Origin: Nitrospinales bacterium
GTDB lineage: Bacteria; Nitrospinota_A; UBA7883; JACRGQ01
Direction: 5' to 3'
NCBI GenBank assembly: GCA_023248535.1
Contig: JAHFEJ010000021.1
Coordinates: forward strand, 9,033 to 41,034
DNA: 32,002 bases
The notes under the pieces were generated by a model that worked only from the letters and a program-made list of their open reading frames with translations, made no database searches and had not been told where the DNA came from. A program made the translations under genes and the position numbers. This document shows positions 1,496 through 28,709 of the stretch, one piece after another (the stretch's first letter is position 1; every line of letters starts with the position of its first letter).

Positions 1496-4381
1496 TTACG
1501 TTAACTTGCCCAAGGCCTCAAGTATGGACTGGCGCTCGCTTTCCGATGGATCAAGCGTGAGCGCATAATTATAATACTCTTTTGCTTTATTCCCATTTTT
1601 TAGCACAAAACCATAGAGTCCCGCAAGGTTGACCGCGGCCATCATATACCGCGGGTCCAATTTGAGGGCTTCAAGGAACTCATGTTCGGCTTCGTAATCC
1701 CTTCCCTGCCGGGCGAAAAACATCCCTTTTAGAAAATGGGTCTGCGTCCTGAAAAGTCCGCCGGTATCCATGTTTTCGGTATCCATGAGCAATTGCATCC
1801 CCAAATCGGGCTGGTTTTTCGCCAGCACCGAAAAGAGAGTGGTGATGTTAAGGGAAAGATAGGCGTACCGGGCATCCGCATTATCAGGGTTCATTTCAAG
1901 GGCGCGGCTAAACCGTTTTGCCGCGGAGCCGATATGGCCGTCGCTGAGTTCTATCTGCCCCCTCAGGAACTCTTCCTCGGAAAGAAAATAATTCCTGAAA
2001 ACCGCCTCCTGTTCCGCCGATGCGAAGCCAACCTTTGGCAAACCGCGGAACTTGAGAAGATTCTCAAGATTGCGCGCCTTGATGGCGACGCCCGATTCGT
2101 GGATACGGGGAGCGGAAAACTCCACGTATGGGTGGTCGTCGGTAACCGGCGCCATTCCCGCCGTGAACAGCCGGATCTGTCCGGCATCCATCATGAAATT
2201 TGAAAGGAGCTGGTTGACGTTCACGATGCCAATGCCCTTCAGGCTTTCCGCGACCCCGCTTTTCGCCATTCCATCCCGGAGCCTGGAAACATCGATGGGC
2301 ATGTCCCCATTCGATCCCACCATGATAGCGTCCCACTTTGTGTACCACATCGACGCATTGGGAAAAACGTCGATGAACGTCGCCACGAGCGCGCGGAAAT
2401 CATCTTCCGAGAGGTGATGCAACGGTATCCACTGGGAAACGATCCCCTTTTCGGCCAGCCGCTTTTTGCACAGCTGGTAATATTCCCTCGTGTACAGGCT
2501 CACGATGCCGGCATTGGAAGGGGGCGGCGGCTCGGAGGTTATCAGGTCGTATTTCTCCCGTGTGGTGAGCAGGAAATTCCTTCCGTCTTCCTCCACCATC
2601 GCAAGCGCCGGATTTTTCGCCACATTGAAATTGGCTTCGGCGAATTGATCCGCCGCGCCGAATACTTCGCGGGAAATATCGACGGCGGTAACCCGCTCAA
2701 GCCCATGCGCGGCGGCGGCCCCCGCGGTGCTGCCGGTGCCAAAGCAGATCACCAGCGCCTTTTTTGGCGCCGGATGCATCAGGAGGGGTATGTGGGCTTG
2801 CAGCCGCTCAAGCTGCAATGCCTCGCGGAAGGCCCCGGCTATCGGGTCGCCATTTATCCATATCCGGCTTACCGGTTTTCGGTACGCGGAAAGGTCGGAG
2901 TCCTGGGAAGCGGTCAAAACGGTCGCGGAAGGCCCCTCCCGGTAATATGTCACCCTGCTGCCGGTCTCCAGTTTTTGGGCGCTCAGGGCGTAGGCGGGAT
3001 CACCAGCCACGATGACGCCGATGGTTACAACCAACAGACAGACCACCGCGAAAACGGCGCGCGACCGCTCCTTTCCGTCCGTGGATTTTAATTGAAGGTA
3101 AACGCCCGCAATGATGGCCATCCATGAGACGGTCACAATGCCAAAGCGTATCCCCATCAGGGGAATAAGCAGATACCCGGCGGCTAGCGAACCTAACACG
3201 CATCCGGCGATATTCATGGCGTAAAACCGGCCAACCATGCCCCCCGTTTGTTCCGGTGTTGCGGAGATCGCGCCCAGAATAAGCGGGAAACCCCCTCCCA
3301 TGAGGAACGTGCAGGGGAATACGATTATCATGGAAAAGATGACCGCTTCGGCCATCGGGCCGCCGCCCGGTATCATGGAAGCAAAGAAACCGCCGCCGGC
3401 CGCTCCCGCCAAGCCCACCAGTTCCCGGTTAAAAAGCAGCGCCGCCAGCGACGCGAGCGCGAACAGCCCAATCCCCATCTGAAATCCGCCGAACAGGAAC
3501 GCCCCGTTGCGCGGCGCCCTTTTCATCATACGGGCCGTCAATGCGCTGCCGGTGCCGATCCCCAGGAGGAAAATCGCCAGAATCAGTGAAAACGCGTACG
3601 TGGTGTTGTTCAAGAGAAGGATGAACATCCTTGTCCAAAGGACTTCAAGGGCCATTGCGCAAAAACCGGAAACGCCGAAGAGGAATAATATGGACGTGTG
3701 GGGAAGCGCGAAGCCTCCGGTTTCCGCCGAAGCTGCTTTGGCCCCGCCGGCGGAAACGGATACCCAACCAGCCTCAGCCGCCAGCAGCAACGCGCCGGCA
3801 CCGCAAATAATGTTCAGTACCGCGCCCACCCTCAGGGTTGCCGACAGGCCGATATGCTCCATCAGCCAAAAGCCCGCTAGAACGCATCCGGCCACCGCGC
3901 CCAACGTGTTGACCGCATAAAGGCCCCCCACCGATTTGCCGATAACCCGCCCCTGTTGCGCCAAGTAACGGCTTAACGCGGGAAGCGTGCCTCCCATCAG
4001 GCCGGTCGGTACCAAAAGCGCGGAAACCGCCAGAATAAAACGCAGCACCATGACATACAGCACGTTTCCGCCATCGCCCGGATGCAGCAGCACATACGAC
4101 TTTTCAAGCCCCTGCAGGATGAAGGGGAACAAAAGCACATAGACGGCGATTGATATTTCCAGCGCGGCGTAAAGCCGCACCGGCGCCATGCCCTGATCCA
4201 GCTTTTTACCAAAGTATACCGCGCCGAAACCAAGGCCCCCCATGAACGCCACCAGAACCGCGCTTACCGCATAAATGCTGACGCCCAGCAAAAGGGTCAG
4301 TTGCCGCACCCAGACAATTTCGTAGATAAGGCCGGCGGCGCCTGAGATGAAGAAGAGGCCGAAAAGGAGGGTCCTTTTCAC
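1496..4381 (-). CDS. membrane-spanning spermidine-synthase-like protein with TPR tail
   Basis: A 961-residue fusion in three parts. Residues 1 to about 480 are a multi-pass membrane region of the MFS/SpeE-fusion type (start MKRTLLFGLFFISGAAGLIY, internal repeat GFCAMALEVLWTRMF). Residues of about 490-760 are a spermidine-synthase-like Rossmann fold: CFGTGSTAG for cofactor binding, AVDIS, EEDGRNFL and SEPPPPSNAG. In this membrane family the catalytic Asp loop of true spermidine synthase is normally SEP-type, so polyamine synthesis is not assured. Residues of about 820-961 hold TPRs. The GTG start overlaps the TGA of the preceding propeller gene (GTGA), indicating translational coupling. The substrate is unknown. 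An aminopropyl-transfer product such as a metal-binding opine-like compound is only a hypothesis. Confidence 0.8.
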   Translation of the reverse strand: MKRTLLFGLFFISGAAGLIYEIVWVRQLTLLLGVSIYAVSAVLVAFMGGLGFGAVYFGKKLDQGMAPVRLYAALEISIAVYVLLFPFILQGLEKSYVLLHPGDGGNVLYVMVLRFILAVSALLVPTGLMGGTLPALSRYLAQQGRVIGKSVGGLYAVNTLGAVAGCVLAGFWLMEHIGLSATLRVGAVLNIICGAGALLLAAEAGWVSVSAGGAKAASAETGGFALPHTSILFLFGVSGFCAMALEVLWTRMFILLLNNTTYAFSLILAIFLLGIGTGSALTARMMKRAPRNGAFLFGGFQMGIGLFALASLAALLFNRELVGLAGAAGGGFFASMIPGGGPMAEAVIFSMIIVFPCTFLMGGGFPLILGAISATPEQTGGMVGRFYAMNIAGCVLGSLAAGYLLIPLMGIRFGIVTVSWMAIIAGVYLQLKSTDGKERSRAVFAVVCLLVVTIGVIVAGDPAYALSAQKLETGSRVTYYREGPSATVLTASQDSDLSAYRKPVSRIWINGDPIAGAFREALQLERLQAHIPLLMHPAPKKALVICFGTGSTAGAAAAHGLERVTAVDISREVFGAADQFAEANFNVAKNPALAMVEEDGRNFLLTTREKYDLITSEPPPPSNAGIVSLYTREYYQLCKKRLAEKGIVSQWIPLHHLSEDDFRALVATFIDVFPNASMWYTKWDAIMVGSNGDMPIDVSRLRDGMAKSGVAESLKGIGIVNVNQLLSNFMMDAGQIRLFTAGMAPVTDDHPYVEFSAPRIHESGVAIKARNLENLLKFRGLPKVGFASAEQEAVFRNYFLSEEEFLRGQIELSDGHIGSAAKRFSRALEMNPDNADARYAYLSLNITTLFSVLAKNQPDLGMQLLMDTENMDTGGLFRTQTHFLKGMFFARQGRDYEAEHEFLEALKLDPRYMMAAVNLAGLYGFVLKNGNKAKEYYNYALTLDPSESERQSILEALGKLT

Positions 4382-5502
4382 CTGAACAGCTTCTCGGTAT
4401 TCTTTAATTTGACCCGCATTTTCTTTGCTTCGTCAACCAGCTTTGCGGTGTCCAACATGCCAATCTTCCCTGTGCCGGATTCAGTGAACCATATACGCCC
4501 CTTTGGGTCTATCACCAGGGTAGTCGGCTTCGACTCCCCTTCGCTGAGATCGAAAATACGTATGGTGGCCGTTTTGGTGTTAAAGCAGAGCAACCGGTTA
4601 TCGGTGCTTTGAACCATCCAGATGTTATCTGACCGGTCTACCGCCATCTCCTGGGTTCCTTTGTTTTTCGGCATCTCGAACGTCTCGTGCTTGCTTGTGT
4701 TCGGGTCAAAACGCACCAGCTTGTTGTCGACCATTTCGAGGTACCAAACCATCCCTTTGGAATCGATCGCCGTCCCCAAAATGGACTGTATGGATTCCGA
4801 TACGCTCCACTCCCGGAACCGCTTTTTTTCGGGATCGAACATGGCAACCTTGTTGCCGCCACGCTCGACAAACCATATATTGCCGAAGTGATCCTCCGTC
4901 AGATCGAAGCTGCTGCTGTTGGGAGTGGGGATATTGAAGTTGTCGAATTTTTCCGTACCGGGACGGAATCGGACCAGCATGTTGTTATTCCAGCCCAGTA
5001 TCCATACATCGCCATTGCGCGCCGCAAAAACAATGATCGGGTTGACATTCTTGAAGGGGATAACGTATTCCTTGAAAGTGCCCGTCCGCGGGTCGAACCG
5101 GCTCAACACATTGACATCCTGCTCCGCCAGCCAGAGCACACCGTCTTTGTCAGCGGCGATATCCATGGCGTGGCTTTTATCGGAGGGAATGGGAAATTCT
5201 TTCATCTCGCGCGACTCAGGGTCAAACCTCACCAGCGCGTTGGCATTGAACTCGATAAACCAGATTTTGGAATCCGCGGTGGCGGTGATGGCGGTTGGAT
5301 AGCTCTCCTTTTGGGGGATGTTATATTCTGTTATCAGCTCGTTGGCGGGGTCAGCGGAAAAGGCGGCAACCGGCAACATCAGTACCAAAAGGATCACCCG
5401 GAAAGCGGCACCGCTTAAAAAACCGGCAAGCCGCCCCATCTTGGAAACGGGCTGAAGCGGCATATCGCGCAAACGGCGCTTTGACAATATCCAAGCCACC
5501 AT
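4378..5502 (-). CDS. Vgb-like seven-bladed beta-propeller, exported (copy 2)
   Basis: A 374-residue protein with an Arg-rich N-terminus and a hydrophobic segment ending AAFSA, so it is exported. Seven repeats follow with the streptogramin-lyase (virginiamycin B lyase) signature. Each has IWF(I/V/T)E- or LWLAEQ-like strands and an RFDP turn, for instance IWFIEFNANALVRFDP, LWLAEQDVNVLSRFDP, VWYLEMVDNKLVRFDP and IWFTESGTGKIGMLD. The catalytic His/Glu set of true Vgb is not evident, so antibiotic lysis is unlikely. A periplasmic binding or scaffold role is more probable. A GGGAAG ribosome site lies before ATG 5502. The gene starts 18 bases after the paralogue at 5521-6756 and overlaps the next gene by four bases. 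Confidence 0.8.
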   Translation of the reverse strand: MVAWILSKRRLRDMPLQPVSKMGRLAGFLSGAAFRVILLVLMLPVAAFSADPANELITEYNIPQKESYPTAITATADSKIWFIEFNANALVRFDPESREMKEFPIPSDKSHAMDIAADKDGVLWLAEQDVNVLSRFDPRTGTFKEYVIPFKNVNPIIVFAARNGDVWILGWNNNMLVRFRPGTEKFDNFNIPTPNSSSFDLTEDHFGNIWFVERGGNKVAMFDPEKKRFREWSVSESIQSILGTAIDSKGMVWYLEMVDNKLVRFDPNTSKHETFEMPKNKGTQEMAVDRSDNIWMVQSTDNRLLCFNTKTATIRIFDLSEGESKPTTLVIDPKGRIWFTESGTGKIGMLDTAKLVDEAKKMRVKLKNTEKLFR

Positions 5503-5520: not shown

Positions 5521-6756
5521 TTAATGAGAGTGTTGGGCGCCGGGATCGTGAACGTGGGCGGGAGCCGCATTTTTGGGAACCGATGAACGGATAAGCATTG
5601 ATATCTGATTCGCGCCCCTATCGCTCTCGGTAAACCAGATATCCCCTTTGGAGTCGGTGGCGATACTCATCGGCTGGGCCCCCATGGAAGGCAGGTCAAA
5701 GGTTCCGAACCTGACGGCCTTCTGGTCAAAATACCCGACCGTGTTCATCATGCTGTCAATGTACCAGATATACCCGTCCTTGGCCGGAGCGATGGCCTGT
5801 GGAGCCGTATTGTAGCCCGGAGGTTCGGTCAGCCCGAACAATTCTTTGCCCGTATAAAATACGCCAATCTGCTTTGTGTGCAATGCGCAAAACCAAAGCA
5901 TTCCCTCGGCGCCCATTTGCATCTTCCCCGGCTGCGCCCGCACGGCGGGAATGGGGAATTTCTTGAATTTACGGGTTTCCGGCTCATACCTGCCGATATA
6001 GTTCTCGCTAACTTCGCTCAGATAGACCAAGCCGGCGGCATCCACCGCTATCCCCATCAATTGGCTTCCCGGCGTAAGCGGTATTTCGGTTATTTTCTTT
6101 TTGGCGGTGTCAAGAAAGCCGAACTTCCCGCCGTTTTTCTCGATAAACCATATCCGTCCTTGCGGGTCTTCAGCCAAATCATACGGCTGGCCGTTTTTAG
6201 TCGGAAGGAGAAACTCGGTGAATTCCTCGGAGGCCGGATCGAACCGGACAACGCTGTTGCCCAAATGCATCACAAACCAAATGATATCGTTTTTCCCGAC
6301 GATCACGTTCCCGGGGCTGCCGACACTGAAAACGTTGAAGGCTTTATCCGGGGAGGTCCGGTTCTTTGAGTCGTATTTCCAGTCCGATTCCGGCAACCCT
6401 TGGGTGGAAGGTATACGGTACTCCTTGAACTCCCCCTTTGCGGGGTCGAGAACGGCCAACGAATTGGCGCTCATCAGTGTGCTCCATATCCTGTCCTTGG
6501 AGTCCACCGCTATGCCATACGGAGTGGCGTAACGGGAAGGGACGGGATATTGCACAATGCGAACATCCCCTTTTACTTCCTTGGGAGCAATGGTGGTGAT
6601 TTTCGGCTTTACTTTTTCGCCAATACCCTTTGCCGGCGCGTCCGAAGCCCGCACGGAGCCGGTAAAGGCCACCAACAACGCCAACCCCGCCACCAACAAG
6701 AAAGATTGAGGCTTAGGCGTCCACCGGAAAATGCTACCAGGTGAACGTAGGTTCAT
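5521..6756 (-). CDS. Vgb-like beta-propeller, exported, His-rich tail (copy 1)
   Basis: A 411-residue protein with a signal peptide (SFLLVAGLALLVAFTGSVRA) and a propeller of the streptogramin-lyase type. Its blades carry motifs such as IWSTLMSANSLAVLDP, IWFVMHLGNSVVRFDP, IWFIEKNGGKFGFLD and IWFTESDRGANQISML. The C-terminus (HVHDPGAQHSH) has four His in eleven residues and could bind copper or another metal. It is clearly related to the next gene (same fold, same blade motifs), so the pair looks like an old tandem duplication. ATG 6756 has GAGG seven bases upstream. The start lies inside the end of the cytochrome b/c gene (23-base overlap), which ties the two in translation. The lyase activity is not supported; the role is inferred from the respiratory context. 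Confidence 0.8.
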   Translation of the reverse strand: MNLRSPGSIFRWTPKPQSFLLVAGLALLVAFTGSVRASDAPAKGIGEKVKPKITTIAPKEVKGDVRIVQYPVPSRYATPYGIAVDSKDRIWSTLMSANSLAVLDPAKGEFKEYRIPSTQGLPESDWKYDSKNRTSPDKAFNVFSVGSPGNVIVGKNDIIWFVMHLGNSVVRFDPASEEFTEFLLPTKNGQPYDLAEDPQGRIWFIEKNGGKFGFLDTAKKKITEIPLTPGSQLMGIAVDAAGLVYLSEVSENYIGRYEPETRKFKKFPIPAVRAQPGKMQMGAEGMLWFCALHTKQIGVFYTGKELFGLTEPPGYNTAPQAIAPAKDGYIWYIDSMMNTVGYFDQKAVRFGTFDLPSMGAQPMSIATDSKGDIWFTESDRGANQISMLIRSSVPKNAAPAHVHDPGAQHSH

Positions 6757-7444
6757 ACATGTGCCTCATCTGCCAGTTTGCATCCTTGTACCCTTGCACC
6801 TCGCTCTGGCCGCCCTCGCCGCCGCCGCCTTCAGCGTTTACTTTTCCCGCCCGATACTTGCCGACCCCGATTTGCATCGCGCGCTCCGTTGCATAATACT
6901 TAGCCACGTTCGCGGGAGCATTGCCCATTCGTGCCCCCATGGAGGCGTTATGACACGAATCGCAGCCGAGGACTTTTGCCTGATGGCCACTCTTATAGAC
7001 CCCCACAAGAATAACCAAGGCGAAAATCAGCGAAGGCAAGGCATAGGTAAAGCTTCTCTTAAATCCTGCCAGCCCCCTGGCCTTCTCAATCAGATTCTTA
7101 AGGCCCGGGATGCGGTCAAAGGGAACTTTATGCATAACCGGCAAGAACATGAAAAATACAAGCGTTAAGATCGGAATAACCGGCATCAAAACAAGGTATT
7201 TCTTCATGCTGCCGCCGAAGTACCAAAATCCCTGCCAGAAAAGCAGGAATATCCATTCGGGGCCGGGGATGTTTTCGCCTTCATCCGGCATCGGAACCTG
7301 GTCGGGGGCCAAATACGGCACCGGATATTTAATCGAAATAACAACCATTACCGCCACCAAAGCGGTCATTATGATTGAGAGGATCAACAGGTAAGTGGGC
7401 CACCAGTATAGCCCTCTTTTTTTTGCGGTGTTCGTGTCGTTCAT
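6734..7444 (-). CDS. cytochrome b C-terminal half (subunit IV type) fused to cytochrome c
   Basis: A 236-residue protein. The first about 150 residues resemble subunit IV of b6f or the C-terminal half of bc1 cytochrome b: three hydrophobic helices and PEWI at 62-65 in place of the quinol-site PEWY. A c-type haem motif CDSCH follows at 161-165, with candidate distal Met ligands near the end (MRHMYEP). It would take electrons from quinol through the partner b6-like protein to a periplasmic acceptor. I choose ATG 7444, which has GGGAGAAG upstream, because the longer frame from 7492 would overlap the b6 gene with non-family sequence. Its stop overlaps the start of the propeller gene. No Rieske protein is encoded nearby. 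Confidence 0.85.
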   Translation of the reverse strand: MNDTNTAKKRGLYWWPTYLLILSIIMTALVAVMVVISIKYPVPYLAPDQVPMPDEGENIPGPEWIFLLFWQGFWYFGGSMKKYLVLMPVIPILTLVFFMFLPVMHKVPFDRIPGLKNLIEKARGLAGFKRSFTYALPSLIFALVILVGVYKSGHQAKVLGCDSCHNASMGARMGNAPANVAKYYATERAMQIGVGKYRAGKVNAEGGGGEGGQSEVQGYKDANWQMRHMYEPTFTW

Positions 7445-7469
7445 GACAGGCTTCTCCCTATTTTCATGT

Positions 7470-8102
7470 TCATACTCTCTTGGCCAATCCAAGCCGCCGC
7501 GTCAGAACGATATGAACGAAAAGAACGGCGAAAAACAGAATGGGCAACATAATGATATGCACCGCGAAATTACGGCCGAGGGTGAAAGAACCCATAATCA
7601 GGCTTTTCAAGGAAGCACCGACCACCGGAACCAAATCAATCCAGTCGGCCCATATAATCAGTTCCCAATAGCTTCTCCAGTCCCACGGCGCAATAATGCC
7701 GGTTATCAGGAAAAGAAAGAAAATCACCCCCAAAACAAGCCCGGTGAACCAGTTCAGTTCACGGGGGCTTCTATAAGCTTTTCTTCCCATTGTGTGGAAA
7801 ACATGCAACATGACGAACAATGCGCCGAAAGTCGCGCTCCAGCGGTGCATATTCCGCATTAACGCGCCGAACTCCGATAGCTGGCACATTTCCCGTATGC
7901 TCTGGTGCGCATGAAGCGGTTCTGGAACATAGTACATGACCATGTAGAAGCCAGTCAGGAACTGGATACCCACACAGCCAATGGTCAAGCCGCTAAAAAA
8001 GTGCCATAACGTCACGCTTTCAGACAGCTCAAATGCAACATGATTGTTATAAAACTGTACTATCCCAAGCCGTTCGTCAACCCATCCAATTATATTTTTC
8101 AT
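7470..8102 (-). CDS. cytochrome b6-like subunit, di-haem
   Basis: A 210-residue, four-helix cytochrome b N-terminal half. The four haem-b ligands are visible as His86/His100 and His182/His197, matching the 14- and 15-residue spacing of cytochrome b6. The segment NMHRWSATFGALFVMLHVFH is diagnostic. Family role: quinol oxidation in the membrane, together with the subunit IV/cytochrome c protein encoded next. Its ATG overlaps the stop of the lipoprotein gene (ATGA, 8099-8102). Given the gene order, the complex probably feeds electrons toward the NosZ-like enzyme, replacing the NosG/H or NosC cytochromes of better-known clusters. That link is inference. Confidence 0.9.
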   Translation of the reverse strand: MKNIIGWVDERLGIVQFYNNHVAFELSESVTLWHFFSGLTIGCVGIQFLTGFYMVMYYVPEPLHAHQSIREMCQLSEFGALMRNMHRWSATFGALFVMLHVFHTMGRKAYRSPRELNWFTGLVLGVIFFLFLITGIIAPWDWRSYWELIIWADWIDLVPVVGASLKSLIMGSFTLGRNFAVHIIMLPILFFAVLFVHIVLTRRLGLAKRV

Positions 8103-8614
8103 TTTGCCCCCTCTGCTTTACTAGCCAATTCCGTGCCATCTGCAGTCTGGGATTCTTTAACGAATGTCGATTCATCGATCGTGTCCGCATTGAAATCTAT
8201 TTGCCACTCATTGGCCTTTTGGTCAAGGATGAGATTCACCTGGCTTGAAGTTTTGAAATTGGCGTCGAATATTGAAGGAGTGTTCACTTCAAGCTTAACC
8301 ACCGCGATCCAGTCGCCACTCTTATTCGGCTTTGCCGGAAGAACCGCTTGAAGCACTTTAATCTTTGACTGGGCCGTCCCGTAATTTTCCGTCCATTTTC
8401 TAAATGAGTCAATATCCATCACGCCATATTTTGTGGAAACCATTTTAAACGCTTCCTGATTGGAAAGGCGTCCGCCATCCGCAAGAAGCTTGAAAAACCG
8501 TGAGGCGACTTCTTCGGGCTTGGCCTCAGGAAATTTGGCCTGCGGTTTGGTGCATCCGATAAAGACGATGGTGGCCAGAAGCGGCCAAATGAAGGTTCTC
8601 AAGACATATTTCAT
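8099..8614 (-). CDS. lipoprotein, NTF2-like, unknown
   Basis: A 171-residue protein starting with a lipoprotein signal (MKYVLRTFIWPLLATIVFIGC; lipobox VFIGC), so it should be anchored to a membrane in the periplasm. The mature part alternates helix (EVASRFFKLLADGG) and strands ending NEWQIDFN, which recalls NTF2-like lipoproteins of the DUF4878 kind. No catalytic residues are apparent. It opens the seven-gene operon running to 1025, and its stop overlaps the cytochrome b6 start by four bases. The ribosome site is poor (GGGGGG about 12 bases off). A palindrome resembling an FNR box lies 22-35 bases upstream. Confidence 0.65.
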   Translation of the reverse strand: MKYVLRTFIWPLLATIVFIGCTKPQAKFPEAKPEEVASRFFKLLADGGRLSNQEAFKMVSTKYGVMDIDSFRKWTENYGTAQSKIKVLQAVLPAKPNKSGDWIAVVKLEVNTPSIFDANFKTSSQVNLILDQKANEWQIDFNADTIDESTFVKESQTADGTELASKAEGAK

Positions 8615-8760: not shown

Positions 8761-10563
8761 TTAGATAGTGGGTTCGCTTCCCTCATTCAGCTTGTTCATC
8801 AGCTTGTTGGTGCCGACGATCCACTGGTGCTCATTCGGAGCAAGCATGGTCTCCTGCTTGGAAATCTCGTCGTAATCGCCAACGCCCATGGAGGCTTTGC
8901 CGCCTGGGGGATCAACGAAGAACGTTCCGCGCATTTCAAGGTGCAAGGGGCCGCAGAACTGCTGGCAGTAGTATTCAAATTCGCCAGCCTTATCAGCCAC
9001 GAATTCGTTTACAGCCGACATGCCGCGAACCGCGAATACCATGGTGCGGGGACCGTAGTAACCAGCGGCGGTGAAGCCCATGGTAACGTCCGGGTTCTTG
9101 GTAAGACCGGAAGCCTTGTCTATATTGGTATAGATCAAGCGGACTTTCGCGCCTTTGGGCACGTGGATGAAGCGGGGCACATAGCCGTAGGAGAAGCCTT
9201 TGACGCGCACTACGTACACATCGCCTTCCTTCGTCACGCCGGGCTTGCCGTCGTCACGGGGAATCCAGGTCCGGCTGCTATCCGCCGTGTGATTCGGCTC
9301 AAGCTGCGGATGCTGATTCGCGGGGAGACCGGGGCGGCCTTTTTCGCCAAAGTTGACGTGGTAGTCGCCAAGGTCATAGCCCTTCTCGAACAGGTCTTCA
9401 CCTTTACCGGTATTCCATCTCTGGATGTACGTGGCGAATATCTGGCGGCCCTCGTGCGGTTCGCCGTCAACCGGCGCCAGCTTGACGGACTTGCCGTAAG
9501 TCGCGCTGGTCTCGTCGATATCCTGTTCCTCGAAGTTAACGGCAAAGATGATGCCGGTCGGGGTAAACAGGCCGGTGGAGAACTTGTTCTGGGACATGTA
9601 GTACGCATCGTCCGGAGCGATCGAGTTGTGACCGCAGCGGTAGTGGATCGGGAACTCGTCAACCAACTGCATGCGCATCACGTCGGTCTTCGAAGTGGAG
9701 TCCGACACGAAGCAGGAGTTGTAGACGTATTTCCCGAGGCTGTCAAACTGGTTGTGCAGGGGGCCGGCGCCAACCGGTATAACCTTGCGCACGCGCAGTT
9801 GATCCACGTCGATGATCGAAATGGTGGCGGAAAGCTTGTCGCAGACGCTTACCATCCGGTTCGTCGGGCTGACGTTGGTACCGTGCGGATTTTTTCCGAC
9901 CGGGATTTCCTTGATCAGCTTGAACGGGTCTTGGCTGAACACCATGACCGCCGAGTGATAGTAGTTGCCCGAGAAGACGTACTTTCCGTCTTTGCTGGTA
10001 TCCGGATAGTCCGGTGCGCTGGGGGCCGGCGGTATGTCAAGAACCGTCGTCGCGCCGTCGGAAAGCCGCAGTTTCAGCATTTTACCGGTGAGTTCGCCGG
10101 TGGCAAACAGATATTTGCCGTTGGGGGAAATAGCCGCGCTGTGGTGAATACCGAACGGTTTCGGCAAAGCGAAGAGGCGCTCCACCCAGCCGGTCTGCAG
10201 GTTCACTTCAGCGATCGTGTCCGCGCCCTTGTCGGAAACATACAGGTACTTGCCATCGGGCGTACCGTTGTTGTTACCCGCGTTGGAGCCGGAGAACGGG
10301 AAGTTGTGAAGGTCGGTGCCGCACTTGATGTGGCGGTACGTCTTCATGGAAGGAATACCGATAACGCCGATGGAGCCGTCAGTACCGCCCGCATCGTACA
10401 AGATTGCATAGTCGCGCAACGGATAGTCGCTATCCTGCGGGGCTATGACTTGCCAGTCACGGGCATCTTTATCCGTAAGAATCGTCTTTTTCGCTTCCGC
10501 GGGCAGGTTAAGAGCAACCAGCGCGACGGAAAGAGTCAATAAGGAAAATAGCTTTTTTTTCAA
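8761..10563 (-). CDS. nosZ: nitrous-oxide-reductase-like multicopper enzyme, divergent
   Basis: A 600-residue protein with a Sec signal (cleavage after PAEA) and no twin-arginine motif, as in clade II NosZ. It has an N-terminal propeller and a C-terminal cupredoxin with the CuA motif CQQFCGPLHLEM (C533, C537, H541, M544). Aligned by eye to Paracoccus NosZ, the CuZ ligands are H86, H140, H227 (PHG), H270 (GPLH), H312 (CGH) and H370 (EPH). The second His of the usual DxHH pair is Asn87 (DLHN). The CuA His of LTHGF is Met495 (VTMGF). It should reduce N2O to N2 in the periplasm, but the altered ligands make this uncertain. The start codon is TTG, behind GGAGGGGGTGGT. It is 18 bases from the small secreted protein gene, and a strong terminator follows. 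Confidence 0.8.
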   Translation of the reverse strand: MKKKLFSLLTLSVALVALNLPAEAKKTILTDKDARDWQVIAPQDSDYPLRDYAILYDAGGTDGSIGVIGIPSMKTYRHIKCGTDLHNFPFSGSNAGNNNGTPDGKYLYVSDKGADTIAEVNLQTGWVERLFALPKPFGIHHSAAISPNGKYLFATGELTGKMLKLRLSDGATTVLDIPPAPSAPDYPDTSKDGKYVFSGNYYHSAVMVFSQDPFKLIKEIPVGKNPHGTNVSPTNRMVSVCDKLSATISIIDVDQLRVRKVIPVGAGPLHNQFDSLGKYVYNSCFVSDSTSKTDVMRMQLVDEFPIHYRCGHNSIAPDDAYYMSQNKFSTGLFTPTGIIFAVNFEEQDIDETSATYGKSVKLAPVDGEPHEGRQIFATYIQRWNTGKGEDLFEKGYDLGDYHVNFGEKGRPGLPANQHPQLEPNHTADSSRTWIPRDDGKPGVTKEGDVYVVRVKGFSYGYVPRFIHVPKGAKVRLIYTNIDKASGLTKNPDVTMGFTAAGYYGPRTMVFAVRGMSAVNEFVADKAGEFEYYCQQFCGPLHLEMRGTFFVDPPGGKASMGVGDYDEISKQETMLAPNEHQWIVGTNKLMNKLNEGSEPTI

Positions 10564-10581: not shown

Positions 10582-10998
10582 TTATTTTTCGTGCTTGTAA
10601 TAAACGCCAGCTTTGGCGTCGGATTCAAGCCGTTTAATCAAGTAGCTGTTAGGATCAAGAATTACGACCCTTCTGGCCACATAGTTGCTGCCATCCAGAT
10701 TCCATCCGTAGACCGCAACCAAGTCGTTAGCCTTCAATTCGGTAAACTTCTTGAAGACGCCCCTGTCGCCAGTCATCACGTAGGCATCGGGATGCAACTT
10801 CATCGTGTACGTCTTGCTAGCCTTCTCAAATTTGGTAGCAATCGTAAGCTCACGATTTCCCAGTTTGGTTATCGTGCCAACCTGCAGGCAGTCCTTATTG
10901 GTGGAACCGTTGCCCAATTCGGCAACCGCGGACTGAGCCAAAAAGACCGTCGAGACCAGAGCAAGCACGAAAGCAAAACCCATTGACTTTATTTTCAT
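10582..10998 (-). CDS. small secreted DUF5666-like protein
   Basis: A 138-residue protein with a signal peptide (MKIKSMGFAFVLALVSTVFLAQSAVA). The mature part has the pattern of DUF5666: VGTITKLGNRELTI at the start, then a TELKANDLVAVYGW turn and a closing NYVARRVVIL strand, which suggests a small beta-barrel. One Cys is present (KDCLQVG). It is the first gene of the transcript that includes nosZ, with GGGGGGTGAT before the ATG. Function is unknown. Its position invites a role in NosZ maturation, metal delivery or folding, but nothing in the sequence proves this. Confidence 0.65.
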   Translation of the reverse strand: MKIKSMGFAFVLALVSTVFLAQSAVAELGNGSTNKDCLQVGTITKLGNRELTIATKFEKASKTYTMKLHPDAYVMTGDRGVFKKFTELKANDLVAVYGWNLDGSNYVARRVVILDPNSYLIKRLESDAKAGVYYKHEK

Positions 10999-26066: not shown

Positions 26067-28709
26067 TTGAAACAGAAAAAGATCATTATCGCCAACCCGC
26101 CGGGGAAATTTCCGGGCAACCGCTACCCCTGCCCCTTTCCCAGCCGGTGGACATCCATTTTCCACAACTACCCGGTTTTCATCTTCTTCCCCTACCAGCT
26201 TGCCTACCTCAGCAGCCTGCTCAAGCGGGAGTTCCCGCAACACGCCATCAGGATGATCGACGGCACCTGGCTGCGCTTCACCGCCGAAGAGTACATCCGC
26301 TGGCTGGAGTGGCAAAAGCCGGACGTGCTGATATTTGAAACCGACACCGTAACCTACCACGAGACCATGAAGGTGGCCCGCGCCATCAAACAGAAGTACG
26401 GCACCACCATCATCATGACCGGGCAGTACTCCACCGTTTTTCCGGCGCAGGTGCTGGCCGACGGATGCGATTACGCCTGCGTGGGGGAATACGAGGAAAC
26501 GGTGCGCGACATCGTGCGCGGCGACGACCCCAAGACCATTGCGGGTCTTCACCCCAACGGCTACCGCAAGGTGCTGGATATCGATTCGCTCCCCGACCCG
26601 GAGGACGACGACATACGCCGCATCGACTACGCATACCCCGGCGGCTGCCGATGGACCAAGTACACGTCCGTCGAGATACACGGCAGCCGTGGCTGCCCCT
26701 ACAGCTGCGATTTCTGCGTGGCCGGAACCGTCTACTACGAAAAACCGAACTGGCGGCCCCGCTCTCCCCAGCGCATCATCAACGAGATAAACATACTCCG
26801 CCGCAAATACCCCTCCATCGAAGGGGTGTTCTTCGACGAAGAGACGCACATCGTGAAGAAAAGCGGGATACTCGACCTCTGCGACGCCATCATCCAGAGC
26901 GGCAACAACGACCTGCACTACGAGGCGATGGCGAACCATCAGCGGCTGGATGAAGAGATACTGGAAAAGCTGAAAAAGGCGGGCTACTACAAGCTGCGCA
27001 TCGGCATCGAGACCATCGACCCCGCCACCAGCGAAAGTATAGGCCGCAAAACAAAGGCCGACCGCTTGCAGGAGATACTGCGCGAGGCGAAGAAACTGGA
27101 CATCGAGATGTACGGCACATTCATCATCGGCGCGTCCGGCAGCACCCGCGCGGGGGACGTGGCGACCATCGAATACGGCGCGAAGCTGCTGGAGCAGGGG
27201 CTGCTTTCAAGCTGGCAGGCGTCCATCGCCGTGCCGCACCCCGGCACGCCGTTCCACGACAAGGCAAAGGAGCACGGCTGGCTGACCACCGATGACCCGG
27301 AACAGTTCAACGGCATCAACGGCTCGGTGCTTTCGTACCCCAACTACTCCGCCGAGGAGATCAAGGGGACCGTCGACATCATGTGGAAACGCTTCGAGAA
27401 GGCCACGCACGGCAAGGCGGCGGTGGCCACCCGCTGCATCGCGGCCGAAAAAACATGGCTGCCGCCGGAACAGCGGGACGACGTGCGGAAGAAACTGCAA
27501 CAGCTCACGGCGGCGTTCAACACTGGCGATAACGAAACGACGCTGGCGATGGCCGACGGCATCATAAACGACTATCCGCAGGTGCTGCGCGCCCGCCACA
27601 TAGTCGCCTCCGTTCACGAACGGCTCGGCTTTTTTGAAAAAGCGCGCGAGATATTCCGGTACATCGTCGCCACCGCCGCCGATTACGACGACGCGATACA
27701 GCACGGAGCGGCGGCGCATTTCCACCTCGGCTGGATGGCCTATCAGGACGGCGACAACGCAACCGCCCGCCACCACTTCGAGCACTGCATGCACCTCAAC
27801 CCGGACCACCTGATGGCCCGCCGGTTTTACTGGATACTGCTCGATCAGGGGGCGACGCTCGGCATCGAATCGGCGTTCTGGGACAAGTTTGAAAAGGATT
27901 ATTCCGGCGACGGCGCCGTGACCGCCCCGTGGGTCGATCTGCAACATGCCGCCAAGGTGCCCCAGTTGAACGATTTCTGGGCCGACCCGAAAGTGGAGGC
28001 GGTGCTGCGCGGCGCGGAAAAACAGCGGCTGATCGACGCCGCATCAAGACCGGAAGTGGAAACGGTGTTGGAGATCGGCTGCGGCGCGGGATGGCTTTCC
28101 CTCGAGCTGGCCCGGCGCGGCAAGAAAGTGACCGGTATCGACGTGAGCGGCGGCCGGATAGCGGCCGCGAAACAGTACGCCGCGAAAAACGGCCTGAACA
28201 TCGAATACCTGCAAGGAGACGCTCTGAAATTCCTGGAGGAAAGCGGGCGCGCCTTCGACCGCATCGTGGCGTGGGACTCGCTCCATCACATCGCCAATCT
28301 CGCACGCCTTATGCGCGCCGTGAGAAAAGCGCTGAAGCCGGGCGGACGGCTGATCGCCTTCGATCACGTCGGCGGCAACGCCAAAGAGCACGGCGAGCTG
28401 GCGAATTCGTTTCTCAACACCGCAACGCTGGCCCAACTGCCGCGCAACGGCAACGGCCCGCACCTTGACGAAGCGCTTTCCCCCTACGAGGATGTGGGGA
28501 GCTTCCTGCTGGAAGAGACCATCCGCCGCCACATGCATGTGGTTGCCCACAGTTCCCACATCGCCTTCACCGGCATCATCGCCGCCACAATCGACTTTTC
28601 CATGACGGATTTGACGCCGTTGGCGCAATTGAAGGAAAAGGAGGAAGAAATGATCGCCCGGAAACAGACACGCGGCGAATACATCTACGTCGAGGCCGAA
28701 GCCCCGTAA
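26067..28709 (+). CDS. radical-SAM / TPR / methyltransferase fusion
   Basis: An 880-residue protein in four parts. Residues 1-150 resemble the B12-binding domain that precedes many radical-SAM cores (IIIANPPGKFPG, PDVLIFETDTVTYHE). Residues 200-430 are the radical-SAM barrel with CPYSCDFC (Cys210, Cys214, Cys217) binding the 4Fe-4S cluster. Residues of about 485-605 hold TPR-like helices (FHLGWMAYQDGDNATARHHFEHC). Residues of about 665-780 are a SAM methyltransferase (VLEIGCGAGWLSLELA, DSLHHIANL, LKPGGRLIAFDH). The likely job is radical and classical methylation of a sugar, lipid or peptide; the substrate cannot be read. TTG 26067 is the only start that keeps the first strand. It heads a run of four plus-strand genes. 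Confidence 0.85.
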   Translation: MKQKKIIIANPPGKFPGNRYPCPFPSRWTSIFHNYPVFIFFPYQLAYLSSLLKREFPQHAIRMIDGTWLRFTAEEYIRWLEWQKPDVLIFETDTVTYHETMKVARAIKQKYGTTIIMTGQYSTVFPAQVLADGCDYACVGEYEETVRDIVRGDDPKTIAGLHPNGYRKVLDIDSLPDPEDDDIRRIDYAYPGGCRWTKYTSVEIHGSRGCPYSCDFCVAGTVYYEKPNWRPRSPQRIINEINILRRKYPSIEGVFFDEETHIVKKSGILDLCDAIIQSGNNDLHYEAMANHQRLDEEILEKLKKAGYYKLRIGIETIDPATSESIGRKTKADRLQEILREAKKLDIEMYGTFIIGASGSTRAGDVATIEYGAKLLEQGLLSSWQASIAVPHPGTPFHDKAKEHGWLTTDDPEQFNGINGSVLSYPNYSAEEIKGTVDIMWKRFEKATHGKAAVATRCIAAEKTWLPPEQRDDVRKKLQQLTAAFNTGDNETTLAMADGIINDYPQVLRARHIVASVHERLGFFEKAREIFRYIVATAADYDDAIQHGAAAHFHLGWMAYQDGDNATARHHFEHCMHLNPDHLMARRFYWILLDQGATLGIESAFWDKFEKDYSGDGAVTAPWVDLQHAAKVPQLNDFWADPKVEAVLRGAEKQRLIDAASRPEVETVLEIGCGAGWLSLELARRGKKVTGIDVSGGRIAAAKQYAAKNGLNIEYLQGDALKFLEESGRAFDRIVAWDSLHHIANLARLMRAVRKALKPGGRLIAFDHVGGNAKEHGELANSFLNTATLAQLPRNGNGPHLDEALSPYEDVGSFLLEETIRRHMHVVAHSSHIAFTGIIAATIDFSMTDLTPLAQLKEKEEEMIARKQTRGEYIYVEAEAP

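Follow-up and report, generated by a model that had tools for sequence, protein, structure and literature searches.

The described nitrous oxide reductases comprise clade I (TAT-NosZ, with the P. denitrificans and P. stutzeri structures), clade II (Sec-NosZ) and clade III (lactonase-type or L-NosZ). In the P. stutzeri enzyme, exchange of His for Ala at six of the seven CuZ His abolishes metalation. Its CuA His alternates between two states, IN and OUT, of which OUT bonds to Ser550, and a gating role in electron and proton transfer is ascribed to this His (PMC11573801). The solved P. stutzeri entries include H130A, H178A and the H583 variants A, D, E, F, N, W and Y; H583M is not among the entries listed.

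Clade III NosZ was reportedly described by He et al. in 2025 (Nature 646:152). In PMC13122619 the same authors are cited as having established the clade, and in PMC13274427 clade III NosZ is taken to be N2O-reducing. A novel NosZ clade of Nitrospirota and Nitrospinae was reported from aquifers on the basis of groundwater MAGs in 2022 and 2024 (PMC9562985; PMC11033732). In groundwater the nosZ of the Nitrospinota MAGs nzgw266-267 was the most transcribed after normalisation to MAG abundance (PMC9562985). The lactonase nature of the propeller is described in PMC11033732, where the vent Nitrospinota genome DRJW01 lies inside the lactonase clade and the authors state that experiments are needed to confirm the function. 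The words histidine, motif and residue are absent from the main text of that paper, in which copper ligands do not seem to be discussed. The lineage as such is already known; what we found undiscussed in the literature searched, which excluded He et al. 2025, is the Glu / His-His / Met pattern of copper ligands that runs, with Asn for Glu in the Nitrospinota, through all clade III sequences sampled.

The gene and its family

The window, a stretch of 32,002 nucleotides, stems from a MAG of 2.87 Mb (98% complete) whose named relatives are mostly Nitrospinota or Nitrospinales MAGs. Its L-nosZ-like gene (Table 1) has a TTG start codon with GGAGGGGG just before it. The plus frame across the same positions is a 571-aa ORF unrelated to the NosZ-like protein. 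The N-terminus, read directly as MKKKLFSLLTLSVALVALNLPAEA, contains a hydrophobic stretch with AEA at its end. It starts with MKKKLFS and has no twin arginine, which distinguishes it from the clade I enzymes.

Table 1. Features of the L-nosZ locus in the window (positions of the window)
Feature	Position	Strand	Remark
Large membrane protein, spermidine-synthase and TPR domains	1496-4381	minus	after the cluster in many Nitrospinota
Vgb-like beta-propeller protein 2	4378-5502	minus	in conserved cluster
Vgb-like beta-propeller protein 1	5521-6756	minus	in conserved cluster
Subunit IV-like membrane protein	6734-7492	minus	one CxxCH haem c motif
Cytochrome b6-type protein	7470-8102	minus	probable quinol-side electron donor
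Small lipoprotein	8099-8614	minus	fold weakly NTF2-like, without Pfam family; follows L-nosZ directly in both phyla
L-nosZ-like gene, 600 aa	8761-10563 (read 10563 to 8761)	minus	N-terminal lactonase/nos propeller (CuZ domain), C-terminal CuA cupredoxin domain
CuA motif C533-xxx-C537-xxx-H541-xx-M544	8932-8967	minus	intact by direct reading, phmmer and hhalign
M495 codon	9079-9081	minus	upstream CuA His replaced; Met invariant in clade III
H140-H141 codons	10141-10146	minus	classical His + Gly/Ala; His-His throughout clade III; candidate relocated CuZ ligand
H86-N87 codons	10303-10308	minus	blade II pair; His-His in classical enzymes, Glu in other clade III
NOV5WD8W family gene	10582-10998	minus	NF052405, 200 bits (cut-off 170); directly upstream of L-nosZ, adjoins it in the Nitrospinota loci examined

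The best NCBIfam model for the protein is NF052460 (clade III lactonase-type N2O reductase) with 595 bits. This is below the curated cut-off of 700 bits, and the protein is not filed as an equivalog member. Since several sister clade III sequences also score short of this value (658-696 bits), the cut-off is regarded as tight and the protein not as foreign. The models for clade II (TIGR04246) and clade I (TIGR04244) give 158.6 and 115.7 bits, respectively, each against a cut-off of 625. Pfam assigns the Lactonase (PF10282, 67.2 bits against a cut-off of 21.7) and nos_propeller families, and the propeller is thus of the lactonase type.

In the trees clade III including the Nitrospinota proteins is split from clades I and II by a 100/100 branch, for which the program warns that long branches meet, and the window protein is placed, with 100/100, among sequences that exceed the NF052460 cut-off. 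The original prediction had raised the possibility of a NosZ-like lineage beyond clades I and II, of a kind already proposed, and had named a NosZ phylogeny as a check. Both the tree and the best family model bear this out, and the lineage in question is clade III. From its sequence the protein is best classed as a divergent member of that clade, with which it shares the branch, the domain layout, His141, Met495 and a six-residue insertion in the CuA loop. It forms one lineage with the aquifer NosZ clade by way of two loci, nzgw267 (L021), which is 95% identical to the window protein, and DRJW01 (L013).

A seven-bladed propeller followed by a C-terminal cupredoxin domain, the fold of the NosZ superfamily, was recovered by Pfam, by an AlphaFold model (pLDDT 79.5, pTM 0.81) and by Foldseek. 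The best 50 Foldseek matches in the PDB are all N2O reductases, with 1fwx at the top (E 1.9e-32). These matches have a TM of about 0.5 and an rmsd of about 15 A across both domains, and we suppose that the monomer model sets the two domains differently.

Copper ligands

According to the codons the propeller part contains H86, N87, H140, H141, H227, H270, H312 and H370, and the CuA domain M495, C533, C537, H541 and M544. Whether they correspond to the classical ligands was examined by three methods, namely a MAFFT alignment with 16 clade I/II controls, a profile-profile comparison of clade III with clades I/II by hhalign (E 1.6e-57), and phmmer against the N2O reductases of the PDB, whose match covers the cupredoxin part. 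The hhalign pairs are, with clade III given first, TDLHN = GDLHH, GIHH = AIHG, NPHG = NPHG, PLHN = PLHN, CGHN = PGHL, EPHE = EPHD and DVTMGF = DLTHGF.

In blade II the classical DxHH is DLHN in the window protein, and in blade III a His-His pair is found where the controls have His-Gly (Ala in one control). Six of the seven CuZ His are hence at their classical positions, position 87 is Asn and His141 is additional. Since every clade III row has His141 and no clade I/II control does, there are still seven candidate CuZ His in the propeller, of which one is in blade II, two are in blade III and four elsewhere, compared to two and one in these blades of the classical enzymes. In the CuA domain the classical THGF is TMGF, so that Met495 replaces the upstream His. 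The insertion mentioned above precedes this motif; every clade III row has it, and the clade I/II rows of the alignment lack it. The motif CxxxCxxxHxxM is complete.

The second sphere is also kept. Lys327, Glu368 and Phe536, whose classical equivalents are regarded as a conduit between CuA and CuZ (PMC11573801), are present as in clade I and are invariant in the alignment. The Ser550 equivalent is Gly or Ala in clade III; this change alone is weak because Ala is found there in several clade II enzymes, too. With clade II the protein shares the fold, six of the seven CuZ His and the CuA motif, but it has neither the His-His pair of blade II nor the upstream CuA His. With clade I it has the fold, the CuA motif and the second sphere in common and differs in both ligand changes. 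Identity to the pooled clade I/II sequences is 25-32%.

Conservation across clade III

The ligand residues were checked in two phyla. An L-NosZ gene was found in 16 of the 24 Nitrospinota genomes searched, and every copy read (76-97% identity to the window protein) has Asn87, His140-His141 and Met495. This His-Asn / His-His / Met pattern is based on 14 sequences with 78-96% pairwise identity. The second phylum, which from PMC11033732 we guess to be the Nitrospirota, contributed 15 full-length lactonase-type NosZ with His-Glu / His-His / Met and a partial sixteenth in which Glu and His-His are present. All 16 clade I/II controls show His-His / His-Gly(Ala) / His. Except for Asn or Glu at position 87 the ligand columns are identical in the 29 full-length clade III rows. 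No L-NosZ was found in 300 genomes of a Spo0A-bearing phylum.

His141 and Met495, which every full-length clade III row shares and every control lacks, are clade III characters in this sample. The window protein matches the pattern of the clade at His-His and Met and deviates from its other members by Asn instead of Glu at position 87, by an identity of 53-61% and by a score below 700 bits. Only Asn or Glu is found at this position in clade III, each fixed within its group, and the two states divide the Nitrospinota from the other members, each on one side of a branch (100/99 and 97/82). Moreover, the Nitrospinota proteins are one residue longer than the sister group directly after the His-His pair, and the two His may therefore be placed differently in the two groups.

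That the changes are due to misalignment or to sequencing or assembly errors is hardly conceivable. The original prediction had been aligned by eye, and the Nitrospinota proteins are so distant from clades I and II that such an error had to be considered. However, MAFFT, hhalign and phmmer agree, and the same residues recur in many independently assembled genomes, which rules this explanation out. The original prediction had given the ORF coordinates exactly, without the strand, and its residue list is identical to the codon reading. Six aligned CuZ His, Asn87 as the seventh position and His141 next to His140 were reproduced by MAFFT and hhalign, as were the retained Cys, Cys, His and Met of CuA and Met495, here together with phmmer for the cupredoxin part. 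Its view of one ligand changed in each copper centre needs to be amended: both changes are real, but they are fixed throughout the clade III sample and are not specific for this enzyme, and His141, noted there as an extra His, keeps the candidate CuZ His at seven. The observed ligand feature is real, conserved and by no means a chance occurrence. Since matching replacements were seen in every clade III relative examined, those at both copper-binding positions look like family traits and not like a defect.

Four further residues of the window protein, H78, H203, C284 and H425, are invariant in 20 clade III rows and unconserved in clades I and II. They may have a role in the copper sites or at the dimer interface.

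Proposed arrangement of the copper sites

We consider it reasonably probable that the protein is a working periplasmic N2O reductase in which the seventh CuZ His has moved from blade II to blade III and a Met has taken the place of one CuA His. The position of H130 is Asn in the window protein, and the new invariant His adjoins the position of H178. Because six of the seven His-to-Ala variants of P. stutzeri lose metalation, an uncompensated loss of one His should break CuZ. With seven candidate His remaining, a relocated ligand is the simplest reading; His141 would be the seventh CuZ ligand, and the tetracopper cluster would be retained with one ligand shifted to the neighbouring propeller blade. 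The CuA copper that is classically bound by the upstream His would be held by the two Cys and Met544, and Met495 would occupy the former His position. The step that this His gates according to the proposal for P. stutzeri would thereby be lost.

An unlikely alternative is a clade III N2O reductase in which residue 87 binds copper through oxygen, so that CuZ would have six His and one oxygen ligand and His141 would be structural or belong to the second sphere. The restriction of position 87 to Asn and Glu, which can both coordinate a metal by an oxygen, and the fixation of one state in each group are in line with this arrangement. It is less easily reconciled with His141, whose invariance in clade III and absence from clades I and II are easiest explained by a role at the cluster. 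Asn is, in addition, a weak copper ligand.

Gene neighbourhood and maturation

The order NOV5WD8W, L-nosZ, lipoprotein, cytochrome b6, subunit IV-haem c and two Vgb-like propellers is found in the Nitrospinota loci of sufficient length. From L-nosZ onward it is kept in three loci of the other phylum (L066, L067, L069), whereas the NOV5WD8W gene upstream distinguishes the window locus from the other clade III loci. Two further loci of that phylum (L068, L071) contain the lipoprotein and both propellers with no cytochrome match between them. A Rieske gene was not recognised in the cluster of the window. The cytochrome b6 and subunit IV-haem c proteins (6734-8102) probably form a dedicated electron path, in which electrons would pass from quinol through these co-encoded proteins to NosZ.

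Both Vgb-like propellers match streptogramin lyase models far under the cut-offs, and their location in a respiratory cluster argues against a role in resistance.

In the 14 Nitrospinota genomes searched NosL (PF05573) was not found, and NosD (TIGR04247) gave just two weak matches below the cut-off. The canonical assembly of CuZ is therefore doubtful in this phylum, and copper loading would proceed with no NosL and probably with no NosD. A function as CusF-like copper chaperone in place of NosL has been suggested for NOV5WD8W (PMC10849945). Among 11 NOV5WD8W orthologues no invariant His, Met or Cys was found, and a CusF-type chaperone for the window enzyme is unsupported. The same applies to the lipoprotein as a NosL substitute, as it has a weak NTF2-like fold and no invariant metal-binding cluster besides the lipid-box Cys.

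The lack of NosL and near-lack of NosD, the ligand changes in both copper centres, the NF052460 score under the equivalog cut-off and Asn instead of the Glu of the sister proteins could also mean that the Nitrospinota branch has lost N2O reduction. The protein would then carry a different or incomplete copper cluster and act on another substrate, in electron transfer or in copper binding. We regard this as rather improbable, since neither the remaining ligands nor the Lys/Glu/Phe second sphere vary, the gene is kept in 14 genomes with high mutual identity, the respiratory cluster is conserved in two phyla, and the ligand pattern, Glu/Asn aside, is also that of sequences above the L-NosZ cut-off.

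The working reductase with a relocated CuZ His is favoured by the family models, the PDB and fold matches, the trees, the ligand columns, the second sphere and the conserved respiratory cluster. Also in its favour are the strong groundwater transcription in the close Nitrospinota relatives nzgw266-267 (PMC9562985) and the treatment of clade III NosZ as N2O-reducing in the citing papers. The missed NF052460 cut-off, the absence of NosL, the near-absence of NosD and the extra residue after His-His count against it. A rearranged copper pair that reduces N2O with a CuZ ligand from another blade (or an oxygen of Glu or Asn), a natural CuA with Met for the gating His and, in the Nitrospinota, maturation that needs no NosL and probably no NosD appears to us an evenly balanced proposition, of which the Nitrospinota branch is the starkest case within clade III. 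An altered redox potential or substrate of the window enzyme, as raised in the original prediction, is possible.

A clade without equivalents of H130 and H583 in all sequences examined is a natural test of the ligands that N2O reduction needs. Its Met in place of His tests whether the gating by the CuA His is dispensable, and the NosL-free version of the Nitrospinota poses the question how CuZ is assembled when the known chaperone is missing. N2O acts strongly as a greenhouse gas, and groundwater transcription is known for close relatives of the window gene.

Several of the Nitrospinota with the spermidine-synthase/TPR protein after the cluster encode a second, distant relative of it (about 28-31% identity) upstream of NOV5WD8W. 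In another genome of the same genus a cytochrome oxidase subunit I gene is located just upstream of NOV5WD8W and L-nosZ (L080, G003:C36, 5232-6572); the window has no room for it at the equivalent place. The window also encodes an 880-aa fusion of B12-binding, radical SAM, TPR and methyltransferase domains (26067-28709, plus strand) in a region with sugar-nucleotide and NeuB-type genes. Finally, a NosZ-like stretch with 26.6% identity to residues 216-551 was found in a record of Pseudomonas phage Y12 (OQ572413.1, 20459-21424); this stretch may be a gene that the phage carries or host DNA that entered the assembly.
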